Shown here: positions 35,670-57,636 of the stretch, in pieces | Position numbering within the stretch: position 1 is the stretch's first letter | Layout: each line of letters starts with the position of its first letter | Source: a virus | Virus record (IMG/VR): IMGVR_UViG_3300042507_002545 | Span: 1-64,000 of that record | Length of the DNA: 64,000 nucleotides | Reading direction: 5' to 3' (one strand) | Translations under genes and position numbers: made by a program | The notes under the pieces: model-generated | What the model saw: only the letters and a program-made list of their open reading frames with translations | Told to the model about the DNA's origin: nothing | Databases searched by the model: none

Positions 35670-36920
35670 TTATCTACTTATTTCTTCCCAATCCACTGAA
35701 ACATATGCCCCTAAAGTTCCACCTGTAGCATCTATTGCCATCTCAACTGCTAATTCAAAAGCAGTTCCTGTAAAACTATTTCTTTCAAGCTGAGTAGCAA
35801 ACAATGCTTCTTTTAATATATTGATACTTGGAGATCCTTGATTGGATGAATTTACATATCCTTGTGCTAATATTCTACCTCCTGTAACAGATGATCCTGT
35901 AAGGTTGTATTCTACAGATGAATCAGCACCTGCTGAAACCCAAGATCCTCCTGTTGTTATAGCAGATTGGACAACCCTCCATGCATAGTTTTTACCGTTA
36001 CCTAATCCTAATAAAGATATTGCTGTAGTTATAACTATAGCATCTAATGTAGTAGTTTTAAGTCTAATTCCTAGCATTGGATAATACGTTCCTGCTACAG
36101 CAAATGTTTTAGGAGCAGTAATAGATGTGCCAACTGCTTGTTGAGCTCCTCTAAGTTCATAACCACCTTCAGATATTGCACTAGAACAAACTTGTTTTAG
36201 TGTACTTGGACTAGCTGTTACTCCCGTATTAGTTATCTCATATCTAAGTGGTAATGAAGCAGTAGTGATATAAGTAGAAGTAATAAGGTTAGCATGATTA
36301 AACCTATGGCATACAATGAAGTTGCCATCTATAATAAAACCTACTCTTACAGTTCCTTCTCCTAACCACTCAATATCCATGAATAAAATCTGAGCCTTAG
36401 TAATATCTAAAGTTATTCCCGATGGACCATTACCGTTTAAAGGATCAGCATTCCAAGAAGCTTGGTTAACTACTGATTCTGTAACAATACCTGTGACTAA
36501 ACTTCTTTCAACAAAACTTAAAGTACTATTATTTAATTGAACATAAATTCCATTATCCGTACCAAAGTATCCTACTCTTTGTCTAAGATTAGTTTGAGCA
36601 GGAGCCATTACAAATGTGTTCATTACAAGTAATGACTTACCTGGTTGATATGACATTACTTTAAAAGTTTCTCTTAATACTTGAGATCCGCTTGTTGTAT
36701 TTACATTTAGATTTACTAGACCTTCATTTGCACTAAATACTGCTGTTCCTCCACTGGCTGTGGAAGTGGCCCAAAGTCCATTATCACGATATCTATGTGA
36801 AGAATCAAATAGAGTTAATGGGTTTGATACTCTTAGTCTACCAAACGCATCTGCTAACATTGGATCATTAGCAACTATTGATTGATTAGATATACCAGAA
36901 GTAGATATTATTGTACTCAT
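35670..36920 (-). CDS. Lectin-like virion structural protein, 416 aa
   Basis: The N-terminal block DAFGRLRVSNPLTLFDSSHR recurs in many marine and freshwater phage structural proteins. It is followed by a jelly-roll/concanavalin-like beta-sandwich (SLLVMNTFVMAPAQTNLRQR, DIEWLGEGTVRVGFIIDGNF) and a C-terminal beta-domain. Presumed tail or capsid appendage that contacts host glycans. It is coupled to the 28-aa gene by an ATGA overlap. Confidence 0.65.
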   Translation of the reverse strand: MSTIISTSGISNQSIVANDPMLADAFGRLRVSNPLTLFDSSHRYRDNGLWATSTASGGTAVFSANEGLVNLNVNTTSGSQVLRETFKVMSYQPGKSLLVMNTFVMAPAQTNLRQRVGYFGTDNGIYVQLNNSTLSFVERSLVTGIVTESVVNQASWNADPLNGNGPSGITLDITKAQILFMDIEWLGEGTVRVGFIIDGNFIVCHRFNHANLITSTYITTASLPLRYEITNTGVTASPSTLKQVCSSAISEGGYELRGAQQAVGTSITAPKTFAVAGTYYPMLGIRLKTTTLDAIVITTAISLLGLGNGKNYAWRVVQSAITTGGSWVSAGADSSVEYNLTGSSVTGGRILAQGYVNSSNQGSPSINILKEALFATQLERNSFTGTAFELAVEMAIDATGGTLGAYVSVDWEEISR

Positions 36921-46293: not shown

Positions 46294-46415
46294 GCACATG
46301 AAAGAATGAATCAGCACTGTAAAAAAATTACAATGCACGAGACAATAAAAGTCTCAAGGGAAAGGTAGGCCACAACAAGTTAGTTGTTAGGCTCTCTTCA
46401 TTCTGTTGTATGTGC
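46294..46415 (+). ncRNA. Structured RNA repeat 3 (expanded)
   Basis: Outer stem GCACAT/ATGTGC (46294-46299 / 46410-46415), loop GAAA/TGTTGT, inner stem GAATGAA/TTCATTC (46304-46310 / 46397-46403), core TCAGCACTGTAAAAAAATTA. The core carries two extra hairpins (GAGAC/GTCTC and ACAAC/GTTGT). It ends 68 bp before the start of the TROVE-like gene. Confidence 0.65.
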
Positions 46416-46483
46416 AAAAGCCTAGTAGTGATACTCGTGGCCTGCCAATCTTAAATTATTGTTTAACCAAAACCCTTTACGCA

Positions 46484-47872
46484 ATGGATAATTTTACCAA
46501 CGCAATGTTTTCTAATGATAGTCTTACCAATAACGGCGCAGTTACTCATAGTACTGCAGGTAATTACTGTCTTGACCTGTTCTTTTTAGCAGGTGCGAGC
46601 CGTTTTATGTCTGAAGAAGATATCTTAAAAGCATTTATCAAGGCTTATCGTGAAGATAAGTTAACTGCTATTAAGATTCTATTTTGGGCACGCGATGCAC
46701 GTGGTGGTGCAGGGGAGAAGAGATTCTTCCAAGTGATAATGAGAAATCTATTAGTAGCAGACCCTGAAGTATATGAGCAAATTGCTATACATATACCAAC
46801 GTTTGGCTATTGGAAAGATATATTCATCATTGAAAGACCAACTGATAATACCCTTAATTGGTTGAGTATTCAACTGAAAGAGAATGAGAATGCTAATCTA
46901 TTGGCTAAATGGTTCCCTCGCAAGGGTGAATGGTTTGTGGCAATGCATAAGTATCTTGGTGTATCAGCAGGTACATTCCGTAGAAGACTTACTTCTATGT
47001 CTAATACCGTAGAGCAAAAGATGTGTGCTAATGATTGGGAATCTATTTCTTATTCACAAGTACCTTCTGTTGCAGGTAAGAGATATGCCCAGTCCTTTAC
47101 TAAACACGATTATGTAAGATACGCCTCTTATATTAGCGATGTTATGGAAGGTAAGGAGAAGATTAATGCTTCAGTATTATTCCCAAGTGACCTTGTAGCA
47201 AAAGTATTTACAGAGCATGATACCTTTGCATACAATGCTATGTGGAAGAATCTTCCTAACTATATGGAAGGTTGTACTGAAAGAATCTTACCTGTTTGCG
47301 ATGTTAGTGGTAGTATGACGGGACAACCTATGGAAGTATCTATAGGATTGGGCCTCTATATCAGTGAGCGCAATGAAGGTCCTTTCAAGGATTTAGTGTT
47401 GACATTTAGTGAATCACCGCAATTTCATAAGATAAGCGGTATGACATTAAGTGAGAAAGCACATAATCTTAGACAGGCTGATTGGGGTATGAATACGGAT
47501 TTAACCAAAACATTCACAGTGTTACTAGATCGTGCTGTTGCAGGTAAAGTAGCACAGGAAGATATGCCTACCAAGTTACTGATTATTAGTGACATGGAGT
47601 TTGACCAAGCCTGTGGTAAGCGTACTAACTTTGATACTATCAAGGATATGTATGCACACTGCGGTTATGAGATGCCGGGTATAATCTTTTGGAATGTTAA
47701 TGGTCGCCTCGGTAATGTACCTGTGAAGGCTAACACACCAAACACTGCCCTTGTTAGCGGGTATAGTCCAAGTATTATTACAAATATCTTGGGCGGTAAG
47801 GATTTGAGTCCTATAAGTGTGATGATGGAAACTATTGGCAATGTGAGATACAACTGTATCAAACTTGACTAA
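46484..47872 (+). CDS. TROVE-like/DUF2828 protein with C-terminal vWA domain, 462 aa
   Basis: The N-terminal two thirds look like the helical-repeat ring of TROVE/DUF2828 proteins: TNNGAVTHSTAGNYCLDLFF, ILFWARDARGGAGEKRFFQ and HIPTFGYWKDI. The C-terminal vWA domain has an intact MIDAS: DVSGSMTG (D273, S275, S277), a Thr in MNTDLT and ISDMEFD (D370). TROVE proteins such as Ro60 bind Y RNAs and misfolded RNAs through the ring. I set the start at 46484; an upstream TTG lies in RNA repeat 3. Family call rests on these motifs; RNA binding is inferred. Its own terminator follows. Confidence 0.75.
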   Translation: MDNFTNAMFSNDSLTNNGAVTHSTAGNYCLDLFFLAGASRFMSEEDILKAFIKAYREDKLTAIKILFWARDARGGAGEKRFFQVIMRNLLVADPEVYEQIAIHIPTFGYWKDIFIIERPTDNTLNWLSIQLKENENANLLAKWFPRKGEWFVAMHKYLGVSAGTFRRRLTSMSNTVEQKMCANDWESISYSQVPSVAGKRYAQSFTKHDYVRYASYISDVMEGKEKINASVLFPSDLVAKVFTEHDTFAYNAMWKNLPNYMEGCTERILPVCDVSGSMTGQPMEVSIGLGLYISERNEGPFKDLVLTFSESPQFHKISGMTLSEKAHNLRQADWGMNTDLTKTFTVLLDRAVAGKVAQEDMPTKLLIISDMEFDQACGKRTNFDTIKDMYAHCGYEMPGIIFWNVNGRLGNVPVKANTPNTALVSGYSPSIITNILGGKDLSPISVMMETIGNVRYNCIKLD

Positions 47873-52840: not shown

Positions 52841-53647
52841 ATGAAAAATTCTATAGAATTAGACGAAATAAGACAAGATAATAAGCCTTTTATTGCAGTT
52901 GAAGACAATGTTTTTTACGGCACAGCTGTAAAACAAGATTATACTAAGAACAACCAAGATGCGGTATATGTAGATAGCCAAAATGGTATCTACTGTTTAG
53001 CAGATGGTATGGGTGGTGAGACTTCACCATTGCTATCACCTGAAGAGATGTCTAAATTTATTGTATCTAAGTTAGCAGGTTTAGAACCTTACAAAACTAG
53101 ATTGCATAAAGCAATTGAACTACTAAATGAAAACCCTGAGATAACTGCTGATAATCTTATATCATATAACTTAAGTTCATTTAGTGGTAGAAATGTTTAT
53201 TTGATGAGAGAATTACATCGTGCTATTAAAGAAAAAGAATGTCTTTTGCATGTGTATAATCAAAGAGCTGGTGCAACTACACTAATTGCTAAAAGAGTTA
53301 GTGATAACACCTATAACATATCTAAATCAGGTGATACTGTATTCTTTGTCGTAGATTCTAATAAAAATGTTAAGCAAGTACATGGTATCTCTACAGATTT
53401 TATGACTACAGGTTATTTAGGTAGTGTTAATGACGGTGAGTTTTATTTAGATGAACCAGAGTTAGATGAGTTTACAGTTACTTTAGAAGAAGGTGATACT
53501 TTAGTTTTATCTACAGATTTCATTGAGACTGAAGAAGCAATTAAAGATTTCATTGATACCAACTTTGGTTTTGACATTGACTTTAGAAACTTCCAAAGTA
53601 AGCATAAAGCAGATGATTCAACGTTTATAACTATCAAGTATGTGTAA
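52841..53647 (+). CDS. PP2C-type Ser/Thr protein phosphatase, 268 aa
   Basis: PP2C motifs in order: NNQD (D40), ADGMGG (D55, G56), GATTLIA, SGDTVFF, LVLSTDF (replacing the usual SDG) and DDSTFI near the end. These carry the Asp residues that bind the two Mn/Mg ions. It is a cytosolic enzyme without membrane segment. PP2C phosphatases reverse Ser/Thr phosphorylation, for example of anti-anti-sigma factors; in a phage it may reset host signalling or counter kinase-based defence. Function in the phage is inferred. Confidence 0.8.
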   Translation: MKNSIELDEIRQDNKPFIAVEDNVFYGTAVKQDYTKNNQDAVYVDSQNGIYCLADGMGGETSPLLSPEEMSKFIVSKLAGLEPYKTRLHKAIELLNENPEITADNLISYNLSSFSGRNVYLMRELHRAIKEKECLLHVYNQRAGATTLIAKRVSDNTYNISKSGDTVFFVVDSNKNVKQVHGISTDFMTTGYLGSVNDGEFYLDEPELDEFTVTLEEGDTLVLSTDFIETEEAIKDFIDTNFGFDIDFRNFQSKHKADDSTFITIKYV

Positions 53648-54023
53648 TTTTAAAAAAGTAATTTTTAGTTTACTATTCTTACTTTTATCATTTTGCTTAA
53701 TAGCTCAAAATAATAGCCACAGTGCACGTGCAATAAGGTTTAGTCATACTGAAGATGATGCTTTTAATTGGGCAGAGTCTGTTAGTGTAGATATACCTAT
53801 TATCATAACAGATAATATTCTAAACATATACACTGAAACACCACAAACATTTCGTATTACTGGTGATCCCGTAGATGTTGACAAATTTAGCAAGCAATGG
53901 TCTGCTATAGATGGTAACGATGTAACCTGCAGTATAAAATTTGTGAGTATAAATGCAAAATTCTTCTGCTATATATATTATGCAGATGTAGCTTATTTTT
54001 ATCGAATAGCAGAGTATGAATAG
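53640..54023 (+). CDS. Secreted/periplasmic protein, 127 aa
   Basis: Signal peptide (VIFSLLFLLLSFCLIAQ, cleavage after about residue 22) then a beta-domain. Overlaps the PP2C gene and the helicase gene by 8 bp each, so it is part of one operon. An exported protein next to regulatory enzymes suggests envelope interaction. Confidence 0.6.
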   Translation: MCNFKKVIFSLLFLLLSFCLIAQNNSHSARAIRFSHTEDDAFNWAESVSVDIPIIITDNILNIYTETPQTFRITGDPVDVDKFSKQWSAIDGNDVTCSIKFVSINAKFFCYIYYADVAYFYRIAEYE

Positions 54024-55107
54024 AGAAGAAATTCAAAAGCAAGCGTTAGATACGTTAATTGCTAATAAAAGATGTGGTATTGCTGTATCTATGGGAGTTG
54101 GTAAAACTCTCATAGGTCTACAGCATATTGCAACTAACTACTATGAAGAACTCAAAGTGTTAGTTGTAGCACCTAAGAAGTCTATATTTAAGTCCTGGGT
54201 TGAAGAGGCTGATAAGTTTAATATGTCTTATTTGAAAGAGCATATTAAGTTTACCACTTATTTATCTTTAGGGAAACAGGATTTAGATTATGATGTCGTG
54301 TACTTAGATGAGTGTCATAACCTGTTAGAATCACATGAACCTTGGCTATCTCAGTACAAGGGTACTATTGTAGGTCTTACTGGTACACCACCGCGTATTG
54401 CAAAGTCTGAGAAAGGACAAATGGTCGCCAAGTATTGTCCTATTAAATACCGTTACATCACTGATGAAGCAGTAGAAGATGGTATTCTAAATGACTATGA
54501 AATTATTATACATTTATTAGATTTAGATAAAAGCTTAACTTATAAGCAAAAAACTAAAAAAGGTTATTTTCCATCTTCAGAGTTAAAGAACTATAACTAC
54601 TGGACTGAGAAACTAATGAATGCTAATGGTTTTAAAGAAGAACAAATACTTAGAGTAATGCGTATGAAATCTATGATGGGTTACCCCAGCAAAGAGCGCT
54701 ATGCTTTAAAATTGTTCAATGCTATAACTGATAAGGTTATATTGTTTGCTAATACACAAGAGCAAGCAGATAAAATGTGTAAGTATAGTTATCATAGTGG
54801 TAATAAAGGTTCTGAAGTTAATCTCGAGTTGTTTAAGACTGGTGACATTGATAAGTTAAGTTGTGTATTGCAGCTTAATGAAGGTGTAAACATACCTAAT
54901 CTTAAACAGGGTATCATTATGCATGCATATGGTAATGAACGCAAGTCTGCTCAAAGACTTGGTCGTATGTTGAGATTAAACCCTAATGAAAAAGCAGTGA
55001 TTCACATATTGTGTTATGATAATACAGTGGATACTACATGGGTTCAGAATGCTTTAGAGCAATATGATGACACAAAAATTAAATGGATTAAAGCAAATGA
55101 ACAGTAA
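54016..55107 (+). CDS. SF2 DNA/RNA helicase, 363 aa
   Basis: Walker A MGVGKT (residues 26-31), DECH box (D98-H101), motif III LTGTPPR, and motif VI QRLGRMLR; the second RecA domain includes VILFANTQEQADKMC. This is a compact UvsW/Snf2-type helicase that remodels branched DNA or origins. Overlaps the upstream gene by 8 bp. Confidence 0.8.
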   Translation: MNREEIQKQALDTLIANKRCGIAVSMGVGKTLIGLQHIATNYYEELKVLVVAPKKSIFKSWVEEADKFNMSYLKEHIKFTTYLSLGKQDLDYDVVYLDECHNLLESHEPWLSQYKGTIVGLTGTPPRIAKSEKGQMVAKYCPIKYRYITDEAVEDGILNDYEIIIHLLDLDKSLTYKQKTKKGYFPSSELKNYNYWTEKLMNANGFKEEQILRVMRMKSMMGYPSKERYALKLFNAITDKVILFANTQEQADKMCKYSYHSGNKGSEVNLELFKTGDIDKLSCVLQLNEGVNIPNLKQGIIMHAYGNERKSAQRLGRMLRLNPNEKAVIHILCYDNTVDTTWVQNALEQYDDTKIKWIKANEQ

Positions 55108-55336
55108 TTTACCCACTGGTGCAGAACAAGATGTTAATGCACCTTGGAATCAAGTAAGTGATTTATGTAAGAATTGCGACAGAGATATTATTAGAGGTAT
55201 GGCTTATGAGTCAACACCTGATGAGTCCGATGTCGATGAACATTTTGAGGCAATGCTTGAAGAAGCAGATATATGCCGTGATTGTTTTAAAGAAGAACAA
55301 GCAGATGATGATGACTGGTGTAACTGGCGAGACTAA
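55097..55336 (+). CDS. Acidic zinc-binding protein, 79 aa
   Basis: CKNC and CRDC pairs about 35 residues apart could bind one zinc. Asp/Glu-rich, ending ADDDDWCNWRD. Start at 55097, overlapping the helicase stop. Overlaps the ClpS-like gene by 32 bp. Function unknown. Confidence 0.55.
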   Translation: MNSNLPTGAEQDVNAPWNQVSDLCKNCDRDIIRGMAYESTPDESDVDEHFEAMLEEADICRDCFKEEQADDDDWCNWRD

Positions 55337-55607
55337 AACTGTTGAACTTGAAGATGTAAAGCTTGATCTGTCCTTTATGGAGGACAGCAAGCTCATCTTG
55401 TTCAATGATGACCACAATAGCTTTGATAAAGTTATTATGGCTCTTATTGTATACTGTCAAATCTCTAGTGCTAAGGCTGCAGAGATTACTATGAAAGTAC
55501 ACAATGACGGTAAAGCTGTAGCAAAGTATGGTCCTCGTAAAGACCTGGAAGTTATAGCTGGTATATTTGGTGAACTAGATTTAACCTGTGAAATAGAAGA
55601 CCCATGA
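55305..55607 (+). CDS. clpS: ClpS-like N-degron adaptor, 100 aa
   Basis: ILFNDDHNSFDKVIMALIVY matches the ClpS core, with N34, D35, D36 and H66 (KVHNDGKA) at the same residue numbers as the substrate-binding residues of E. coli ClpS. Position 40 is Phe where E. coli has the Met gate. The full length equals normal ClpS, and the C-terminal LDLTCEIE strand is also ClpS-like. ClpS delivers N-degron proteins to ClpAP. The phage copy could redirect or block this. Start chosen among three ATGs (55305-55313). Confidence 0.75.
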   Translation: MMMTGVTGETKTVELEDVKLDLSFMEDSKLILFNDDHNSFDKVIMALIVYCQISSAKAAEITMKVHNDGKAVAKYGPRKDLEVIAGIFGELDLTCEIEDP

Positions 55608-55831
55608 AACCAGGAGACTACTACATAGATGATTACTATGAGCCAGATACTATTGTAGTAAAGATTACTGATCAAGATACTGCTGATGGTTACACATGTA
55701 GAGTTGTTTATTCAAGTGATCCTGGCCGTATGAGAATAGGTGAAAAGGTATCACGTTATTCAGATGACGAGGACCTTATACCAGTAGCTATGATCACCAT
55801 AGATAATAAAGTAATACTAATTAATTTATGA
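55604..55831 (+). CDS. Small beta protein, 75 aa
   Basis: MKPGDYYIDDYYEPDTIVVK, ends in MITIDNKVILINL. An SH3-like small barrel is plausible. Coupled to ClpS by a 4-bp overlap (ATGA). Confidence 0.5.
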   Translation: MKPGDYYIDDYYEPDTIVVKITDQDTADGYTCRVVYSSDPGRMRIGEKVSRYSDDEDLIPVAMITIDNKVILINL

Positions 55832-56358: not shown

Positions 56359-56631
56359 ATGAAATTGCACGGAAAAAGAATTCTCATTGAGAAGCCTATT
56401 AAACCTGAGTCTCAGGTATTGTTAACAGCAGAATCTGAAGCTGCTATGGAACAAGAGTGGATGAAGAGCTGGACTAAGCTTAAGGTACATGCTACCGGAT
56501 CTGATTGTACTAATGTACAACCAGGAGATTTGGTATATGTAGGAAACGCGTTAGCTAACTCTGAGATTATTGACATTGATGGTAGCTTATACTTTCTTGT
56601 TAACGAGGCTGCGGTATGCATAACGTGGTAG
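56359..56631 (+). CDS. GroES-like co-chaperonin, 90 aa
   Basis: The start GKRILIEKPIKPESQVLL, the central KLKVHATGSDCTNVQPGDLV and the end SLYFLVNEAAVCITW follow the GroES/Cpn10 plan: mobile-loop region, V-x-PGD-V turn, and a final beta-hairpin. T4 gp31 and other phage co-chaperonins help fold capsid proteins with host GroEL. Sequence similarity is weak, so this is a fold-level call. Confidence 0.5.
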   Translation: MKLHGKRILIEKPIKPESQVLLTAESEAAMEQEWMKSWTKLKVHATGSDCTNVQPGDLVYVGNALANSEIIDIDGSLYFLVNEAAVCITW

Positions 56632-56789
56632 ATACATTAAAGGAACTAATAACGCAGATGGATAATCTACGTAATAATAAAACAGTTCCTTATCTTAACC
56701 CATACAAGGGTATAGATGATTGTGTTGATCTAGTTAACCGTAAAATACGTGAGCTTGAAAGAAAAAAGCCTAATCAAGAAAGTAACTAG
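56616..56789 (+). CDS. Small helical protein, 57 aa
   Basis: MHNVVDTLKELITQMDNLRN then KGIDDCVDLVNRKIRELERK. Overlaps GroES-like and radical SAM genes. Too short for a family call. Confidence 0.5.
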   Translation: MHNVVDTLKELITQMDNLRNNKTVPYLNPYKGIDDCVDLVNRKIRELERKKPNQESN

Positions 56790-57636
56790 AAAGCAATTAA
56801 AGATTACTGAATCTGGCCGAAGCACGGACTTCATTGCTCCTAGCTTTGGCCACGGTTGTCTTTATAACTGTAGTTACTGTTATATGAAACGCCACCGTCC
56901 TACGGGATTACAGGTGGCAGATAATGTAGATGATGTATTACATGCTATAACTGAACACTACTCTGACATAGTTTACTCGCCTTGGTATAAACAGAATAAG
57001 CCTAACCAAACTGATGATCATGATATAACGTATGATATAGGTAGCAATGAAGATCTTGCTTTACATGCTAAGTACTATGACATAGACCATATTTTTAAAA
57101 CTGTATATGGTAGAACATATCTTAAATTCTCATTTGCTACTAAGTATGTAAACTATGATTTACCTAATGTTTTTCATGGTATTAGAATTAGATTTAGTCT
57201 TATGCCGCAGAAGTATGCGGATGTGCTAGAGCCCGAAACCAGTTCTATTATAGAAAGGATTCAGGCTATAGATAAGTTTATAGATAAGGGTTATGAGGTT
57301 CACATTAACTTTAGTCCTGTAATTGTAACAGATACTTGGTTAGATGATTACCGAGATTTGTTTATGCTTGTTGATGAGCATGTTACAAATAAGGATAAAG
57401 TAAAGTGTGAGGTTATATTCCTTACTCACAATGAGAAGAAGCATAACTACAATCTTGCTAATGATATACCCGGCGAGGACATGTTGTGGAGACCTGAGAT
57501 TCAAGAAAATAAGATATCAGGTAACGGTGAATTAAATATTCGCTACCAACATAAACTTAAGTCTGAGTATATTTATCAATTCAAAGCATTGCATGGTATA
57601 ATCTTACCGTGGAATACAATACGTTATATTTTTTAA
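56749..57636 (+). CDS. SPL-type radical SAM enzyme, 295 aa
   Basis: The 4Fe-4S motif is CxxxCxxC (C37, C41, C44) in GHGCLYNCSYCYMKRH, and IRIRFSLMPQ matches the spore photoproduct lyase family. Radical SAM SPL enzymes repair UV photoproducts in DNA. The likely start is GTG at 56749, since no ATG lies before the cluster motif. About 295 residues is slightly shorter than bacterial SPL (about 340). In a phage it could repair virion DNA damage; other substrates are possible. Confidence 0.7.
   Translation: MSLKEKSLIKKVTRKQLKITESGRSTDFIAPSFGHGCLYNCSYCYMKRHRPTGLQVADNVDDVLHAITEHYSDIVYSPWYKQNKPNQTDDHDITYDIGSNEDLALHAKYYDIDHIFKTVYGRTYLKFSFATKYVNYDLPNVFHGIRIRFSLMPQKYADVLEPETSSIIERIQAIDKFIDKGYEVHINFSPVIVTDTWLDDYRDLFMLVDEHVTNKDKVKCEVIFLTHNEKKHNYNLANDIPGEDMLWRPEIQENKISGNGELNIRYQHKLKSEYIYQFKALHGIILPWNTIRYIF

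Follow-up and report, generated by a model that had tools for sequence, protein, structure and literature searches.

ClpS is an adaptor that recognises proteins by certain first amino acids and passes them to the Clp protease. In E. coli ClpS the N-terminal extension sits in the channel of ClpA and is pulled by the pore during delivery; its sequence is poorly conserved and tolerates change (PMC9663308). ClpS is already known from jumbo phages. Gene product gp708 of the Agrobacterium phage Atu_ph07, which also encodes ClpA and ClpX, is a ClpS (PMC6102473), and recruitment of host ClpAP was proposed for several jumbo phages carrying the gene (PMC7824862). The DNA analysed here (the window, 64,000 nucleotides, positions 1 to 64,000 of virus record IMGVR_UViG_3300042507_002545, which has 97,988 bases) shares a phage-encoded ClpS with the jumbo phages Atu_ph07, the Pseudomonas PA5oct group and Cronobacter GAP32. 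Those genomes are ~280-490 kb long and their ClpS was found with the E. coli protein, whereas the window comes from a 98-kb crAss-like phage with a ClpS of the Bacteroidota type and, unlike Atu_ph07, without ClpA or ClpP of its own. Among annotated phage records, those with an E. coli-like ClpS were mostly jumbo phages, and a Bacteroidota-type query of phage records matched only three unannotated uncultured phages of 635-642 kb. In the literature, which was covered in part, no paper was found naming ClpS together with crAss-like phages, and we found no earlier report for the phage group of the window.

The phage appears to have crAss-like structural genes and, by the distant likeness of its MCP and terminase, may belong to the Crassvirales. 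The MCP was 23-29% identical to those of crAss-like phages and of Leptolyngbya phage Lbo-JY46 (28.8% over the whole length for the latter), and the terminase had relatives at ~25% identity in crAss-like, Flavobacterium and Cellulophaga phages, and also relatives in Bacteroides phages. Our best guess for the host is a member of the Bacteroidota. The host may instead be a cyanobacterium, as one virion gene has 65% identity to a protein of Synechococcus phages, but the terminase points to phages of Bacteroidota. The virion gene (35670-36920, - strand) encodes a structural protein with 65-66% identity to Synechococcus cyanophage proteins. Scans of the window for tRNA genes and Rfam families found nothing.

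The gene and its parts are the following:
55305..55607, + strand: clpS, 100 amino acids, Bacteroidota-type ClpS (Pfam PF02617, E=1.3e-14; AlphaFold2 and Foldseek; 21 close phage loci)
55305..55385, + strand: N-terminal extension of 27 residues, acidic (7 D/E, 2 K/R), no proline
55404..55412, + strand: N34-D35-D36, N-degron alpha-amino-binding motif
55500..55502, + strand: H66

The match to PF02617 scored 54.1 bits against a cutoff of 23. The alignment spanned model positions 7-60 of 80, and the C-terminal part is short, as in Bacteroidota ClpS. Residues 9-74 were also matched by phrog_27368 (E=7.1e-8), which bears the name 'ATP-dependent protease' although the ClpS match is to the adaptor. This ORF, whose start codon lies within a run of three ATGs, was the sole ClpS match in the whole virus record.

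A phmmer search of PDB with the single phage sequence gave no match at E<=0.001; PDB matches at this threshold were obtained with the alignment profile instead. The AlphaFold2 model, built from a 78-sequence alignment, had a mean pLDDT of 84, with block means of 94-97 across residues 41-100 and low confidence for residues 1-20. With Foldseek, 38 PDB entries matched the model at E<=0.001 and every one was a ClpS, among them peptide-bound structures from E. coli, Caulobacter, M. smegmatis and Arabidopsis. TM scores (by target) reached 0.92, the value for M. smegmatis 9ayo, and rmsd was about 1.0-1.2; for E. coli ClpS with a Trp peptide (2wa9) the values were TM 0.83 and rmsd 1.2. Annotated phage ClpS, e.g. 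that of Atu_ph07, were among the top viral matches. Structure prediction and superposition, one of the checks proposed in the initial annotation, confirmed the ClpS fold at the level of the model.

In the phmmer alignment, residues 28-73 of the phage protein paired with residues 28-73 of E. coli ClpS (1mbu; sequence from NC_000913) at zero offset, and N34, D35, D36 and H66 are therefore numbered as in E. coli. That these four residues occupy the positions of bacterial ClpS, as the initial annotation had it, was borne out by this alignment and by their conservation: N34, D35, D36, N38, F40, V43 and H66 were 100% conserved in 19 distinct phage orthologs (clade W, 72-100% identity) derived from 21 close loci on related phage contigs. 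In the hydrophobic pocket V43 and V65 are retained, and M40 is replaced by F and M62 by T/A, as in Bacteroidota ClpS. Position 36 was looser than N34, D35 and H66, with N, H or E in other phage ClpS. The notion that loss of D36 marks phage decoys was rejected, because E and N were also found at this position in some host ClpS of a sample that was not selected by motif. The first host set had been picked by the NDD motif pattern and was biased; the second, of 40 sequences, was drawn from a phylum sample with no motif selection.

The phage protein resembles bacterial (E. coli, Bacteroidota) ClpS in fold, NDD motif, H66, extension length and small size. Identity to E. coli ClpS was ~24% over the core, and the phage protein differs from it in having F40 instead of the gate residue M40 and a shorter C-terminal segment, both of which are common to the Bacteroidota type. 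The closest sequence outside clade W was ~45% identical, which was also the best value for cellular Bacteroidota ClpS. The QAEQC stretch found in typical Bacteroidota ClpS is absent from clade W, and helix 3, which we take to be the site of ClpA contacts, is different as well.

Clade-W clpS is under purifying selection (median pairwise dN/dS ~0.13). Clade W formed one clade (SH-aLRT 100 and 96) in two trees, built from 131 and 141 ClpS cores, and its long branch fell among the ClpS of Bacteroidota and of many other phages; these trees rest on 74 columns, so that the exact sister group and the deeper forks fall below their resolution. Recent acquisition from a host was not supported, since on these 74 columns clade W was monophyletic, long-branched and without a close cellular sister. 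Together, the profile match, predicted fold, residue conservation and selection bear out the initial reading of the ORF as a ClpS-like gene and support a phage-encoded ClpS-fold adaptor whose N-degron pocket appears intact.

The neighbourhood of clpS contains these features:
54016..55107, + strand: SF2/ResIII-type helicase, directly upstream, synteny partner
55097..55336, + strand: small Cys-rich (CxxC...CxxC) ORF, longest frame starting at 55064
55604..55831, + strand: small ORF, 4-base overlap with the clpS stop (ATGA)
56359..56631, + strand: GroES-like ORF (weak phrog_3188 match, E=4.9e-4)

The helicase was found 5' of clpS in all 21 clade-W loci and, outside clade W, in 44 of 66 phage clpS loci, a set that includes overlapping pieces of one contig. 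When loci were anchored on DnaB, clpS followed the helicase in 11 of the 14 that reached it and was absent from three; with the helicase as anchor it was present in 8/16. By these counts clpS is frequent, but not universal, at a fixed place. Of 20 phage records with ClpS, counting that of the window, 15 had the terminase in common (62-100% identity). The gene is kept at the same genome position in many related water-borne viruses, and its fixed place beside the helicase across the phage family suggests a steady role and not that of a passenger. It is very improbable that clpS came from a host by recent capture and lacks a selected role in the phage: ClpS is common in Bacteroidota, but the monophyletic phage clade, its long branch, the constant position beside the same helicase and the purifying selection all speak against capture of this kind. 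The Cys-rich ORF, whose end overlaps the clpS start by 32 bases, adjoined clpS in 21/21 clade-W loci and matched no known family. The weak GroES-like ORF was also close to clpS in part of the related phages.

No Clp_N unfoldase, ClpP or leucyl/phenylalanyl transferase was detected in the 98-kb virus record, and on this lack of matches a Clp system or transferase of the phage's own was rejected. With no detectable partner genes in the phage, the host's Clp machinery would have to serve, and the phage probably borrows the host's Clp protease. ClpS was present in 285 of 297 Bacteroidota genomes, and the transferase and Clp_N proteins in all 24 ClpS-bearing Bacteroidota genomes checked. Of the host Clp_N proteins, two were examined closely and both bear a UVR motif, which is typical of ClpC; another (L192) scored as ClpB. 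Judged by this motif, the phage ClpS probably works with ClpC-ClpP, and not with ClpAP, in likely hosts. The initial annotation is supported in part, in the identity of ClpS, while ClpAP is the less likely partner. A 122-kb IMG/VR record (G012; L149:5980-9121 and L189) has ClpS with a ClpC-type unfoldase (UVR motif) directly behind it, an M16 peptidase close by and ClpP at another place; it is possibly a virus equipped with a Clp system of its own, or else a contig that was misclassified.

For the binding, delivery, partner, substrates and benefit of the phage ClpS we infer the following. The folded core would bind the free N-terminus of proteins starting with a bulky hydrophobic residue, by means of N34, D35/D36 and H66 and the pocket behind F40, V43 and V65. 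The core would also dock on the host unfoldase at its Clp_N domain; in both likely hosts looked at, this unfoldase is of the ClpC type. Once the 27-residue extension had entered the channel, the substrate would be handed on to ClpP of the host. In infected cells, additional or altered ClpS would then direct more of the host's proteolysis at N-degron proteins and less at other substrates. We consider it fairly probable that the protein is such a working N-degron adaptor, by which the phage steers the host's own Clp machine (ClpCP). The profile match, the fold, the invariant residues, the low dN/dS, the extension, the absence of partners in the phage and their presence in hosts, and the fixed position argue for this reading; the divergence of clade W, the missing QAEQC stretch and the differences in helix 3 count against it.

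If the phage ClpS acted by docking alone, its effect could be independent of N-degrons: binding to Clp_N would mainly alter the general action of ClpC, for example by lowering degradation of ssrA-tagged proteins or regulators, increasing aggregate handling or reducing self-degradation of ClpC. E. coli ClpS alters substrate choice and aggregate handling of ClpAP (Dougan 2002, as cited in PMC6102473), and unfoldase binding would by itself suffice for a phage gene. We nevertheless regard this role as quite improbable, as it needs no invariant pocket, yet clade W shows no variation at N34, D35, D36 or H66.

The N-terminal extension bears on whether the adaptor would deliver its substrates or withhold them. 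About 25 residues before the core are described as needed for delivery by E. coli ClpS (PMC9663308); the phage protein has 27, a length close to that of the E. coli extension and retained in clade W. A full-length extension favours delivery over a decoy, and together with the retained N-degron contact residues it makes delivery the better-fitting, favoured reading. A decoy or dominant-negative ClpS would occupy host ClpC or N-degrons without hand-off, sparing phage N-degron substrates. The divergence of the phage protein from host ClpS would suit such a role, as would the ClpS of a sister phage (L166), which at the same locus has ~6 residues before the core, a stop just upstream closing the frame, and a similar short form in another sister phage (L390) that also lacks H66. 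Clade W, including the window, however, evolves under purifying selection with the full extension, NDD motif and H66 all in place, and for the window a decoy is unlikely.

Short-extension ClpS were found in sister phages (L166:2714-2962, L179:6007-6258, L184:6010-6261 and L390:3711-4013). In these proteins the core is preceded by ~6-8 residues and the C-terminal tail (HESHMY-like) ends in Tyr, and L390 has Asn in place of H66; these forms are possibly dominant-negative versions. A wider proposal, which we put forward as speculative and rather improbable, is that ClpS-based control of proteolysis has a hot spot at one locus in a large family of aquatic crAss-like phages, where competent adaptors, including that of the window, would re-aim host ClpCP and the extension-less or H66-less sisters would be dominant-negative anti-adaptors. 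N-degron decay would then be a two-sided battleground of phage and host.

Should the favoured adaptor role hold, and the phage re-aim host ClpC-ClpP, the gene would offer a handle on which host and phage proteins are destroyed or spared in infection. It would also give research on the N-degron pathway of Bacteroidota, on which no study was found in the literature searched, a small tool that can be tested.

Three further ORFs of the window, all on the + strand, were assigned. The product of 56749-57636 is a radical SAM protein resembling spore photoproduct lyase (PF20903, E=9.2e-19), matchless in the annotated phage collection. ORF 52841-53647 is Protein phosphatase 2C-like (PF13672, barely above cutoff). 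ORF 46406-47872 encodes a phrog_850 RNA-binding protein, 46% identical to a KVP40 protein and distributed over phages of many hosts.
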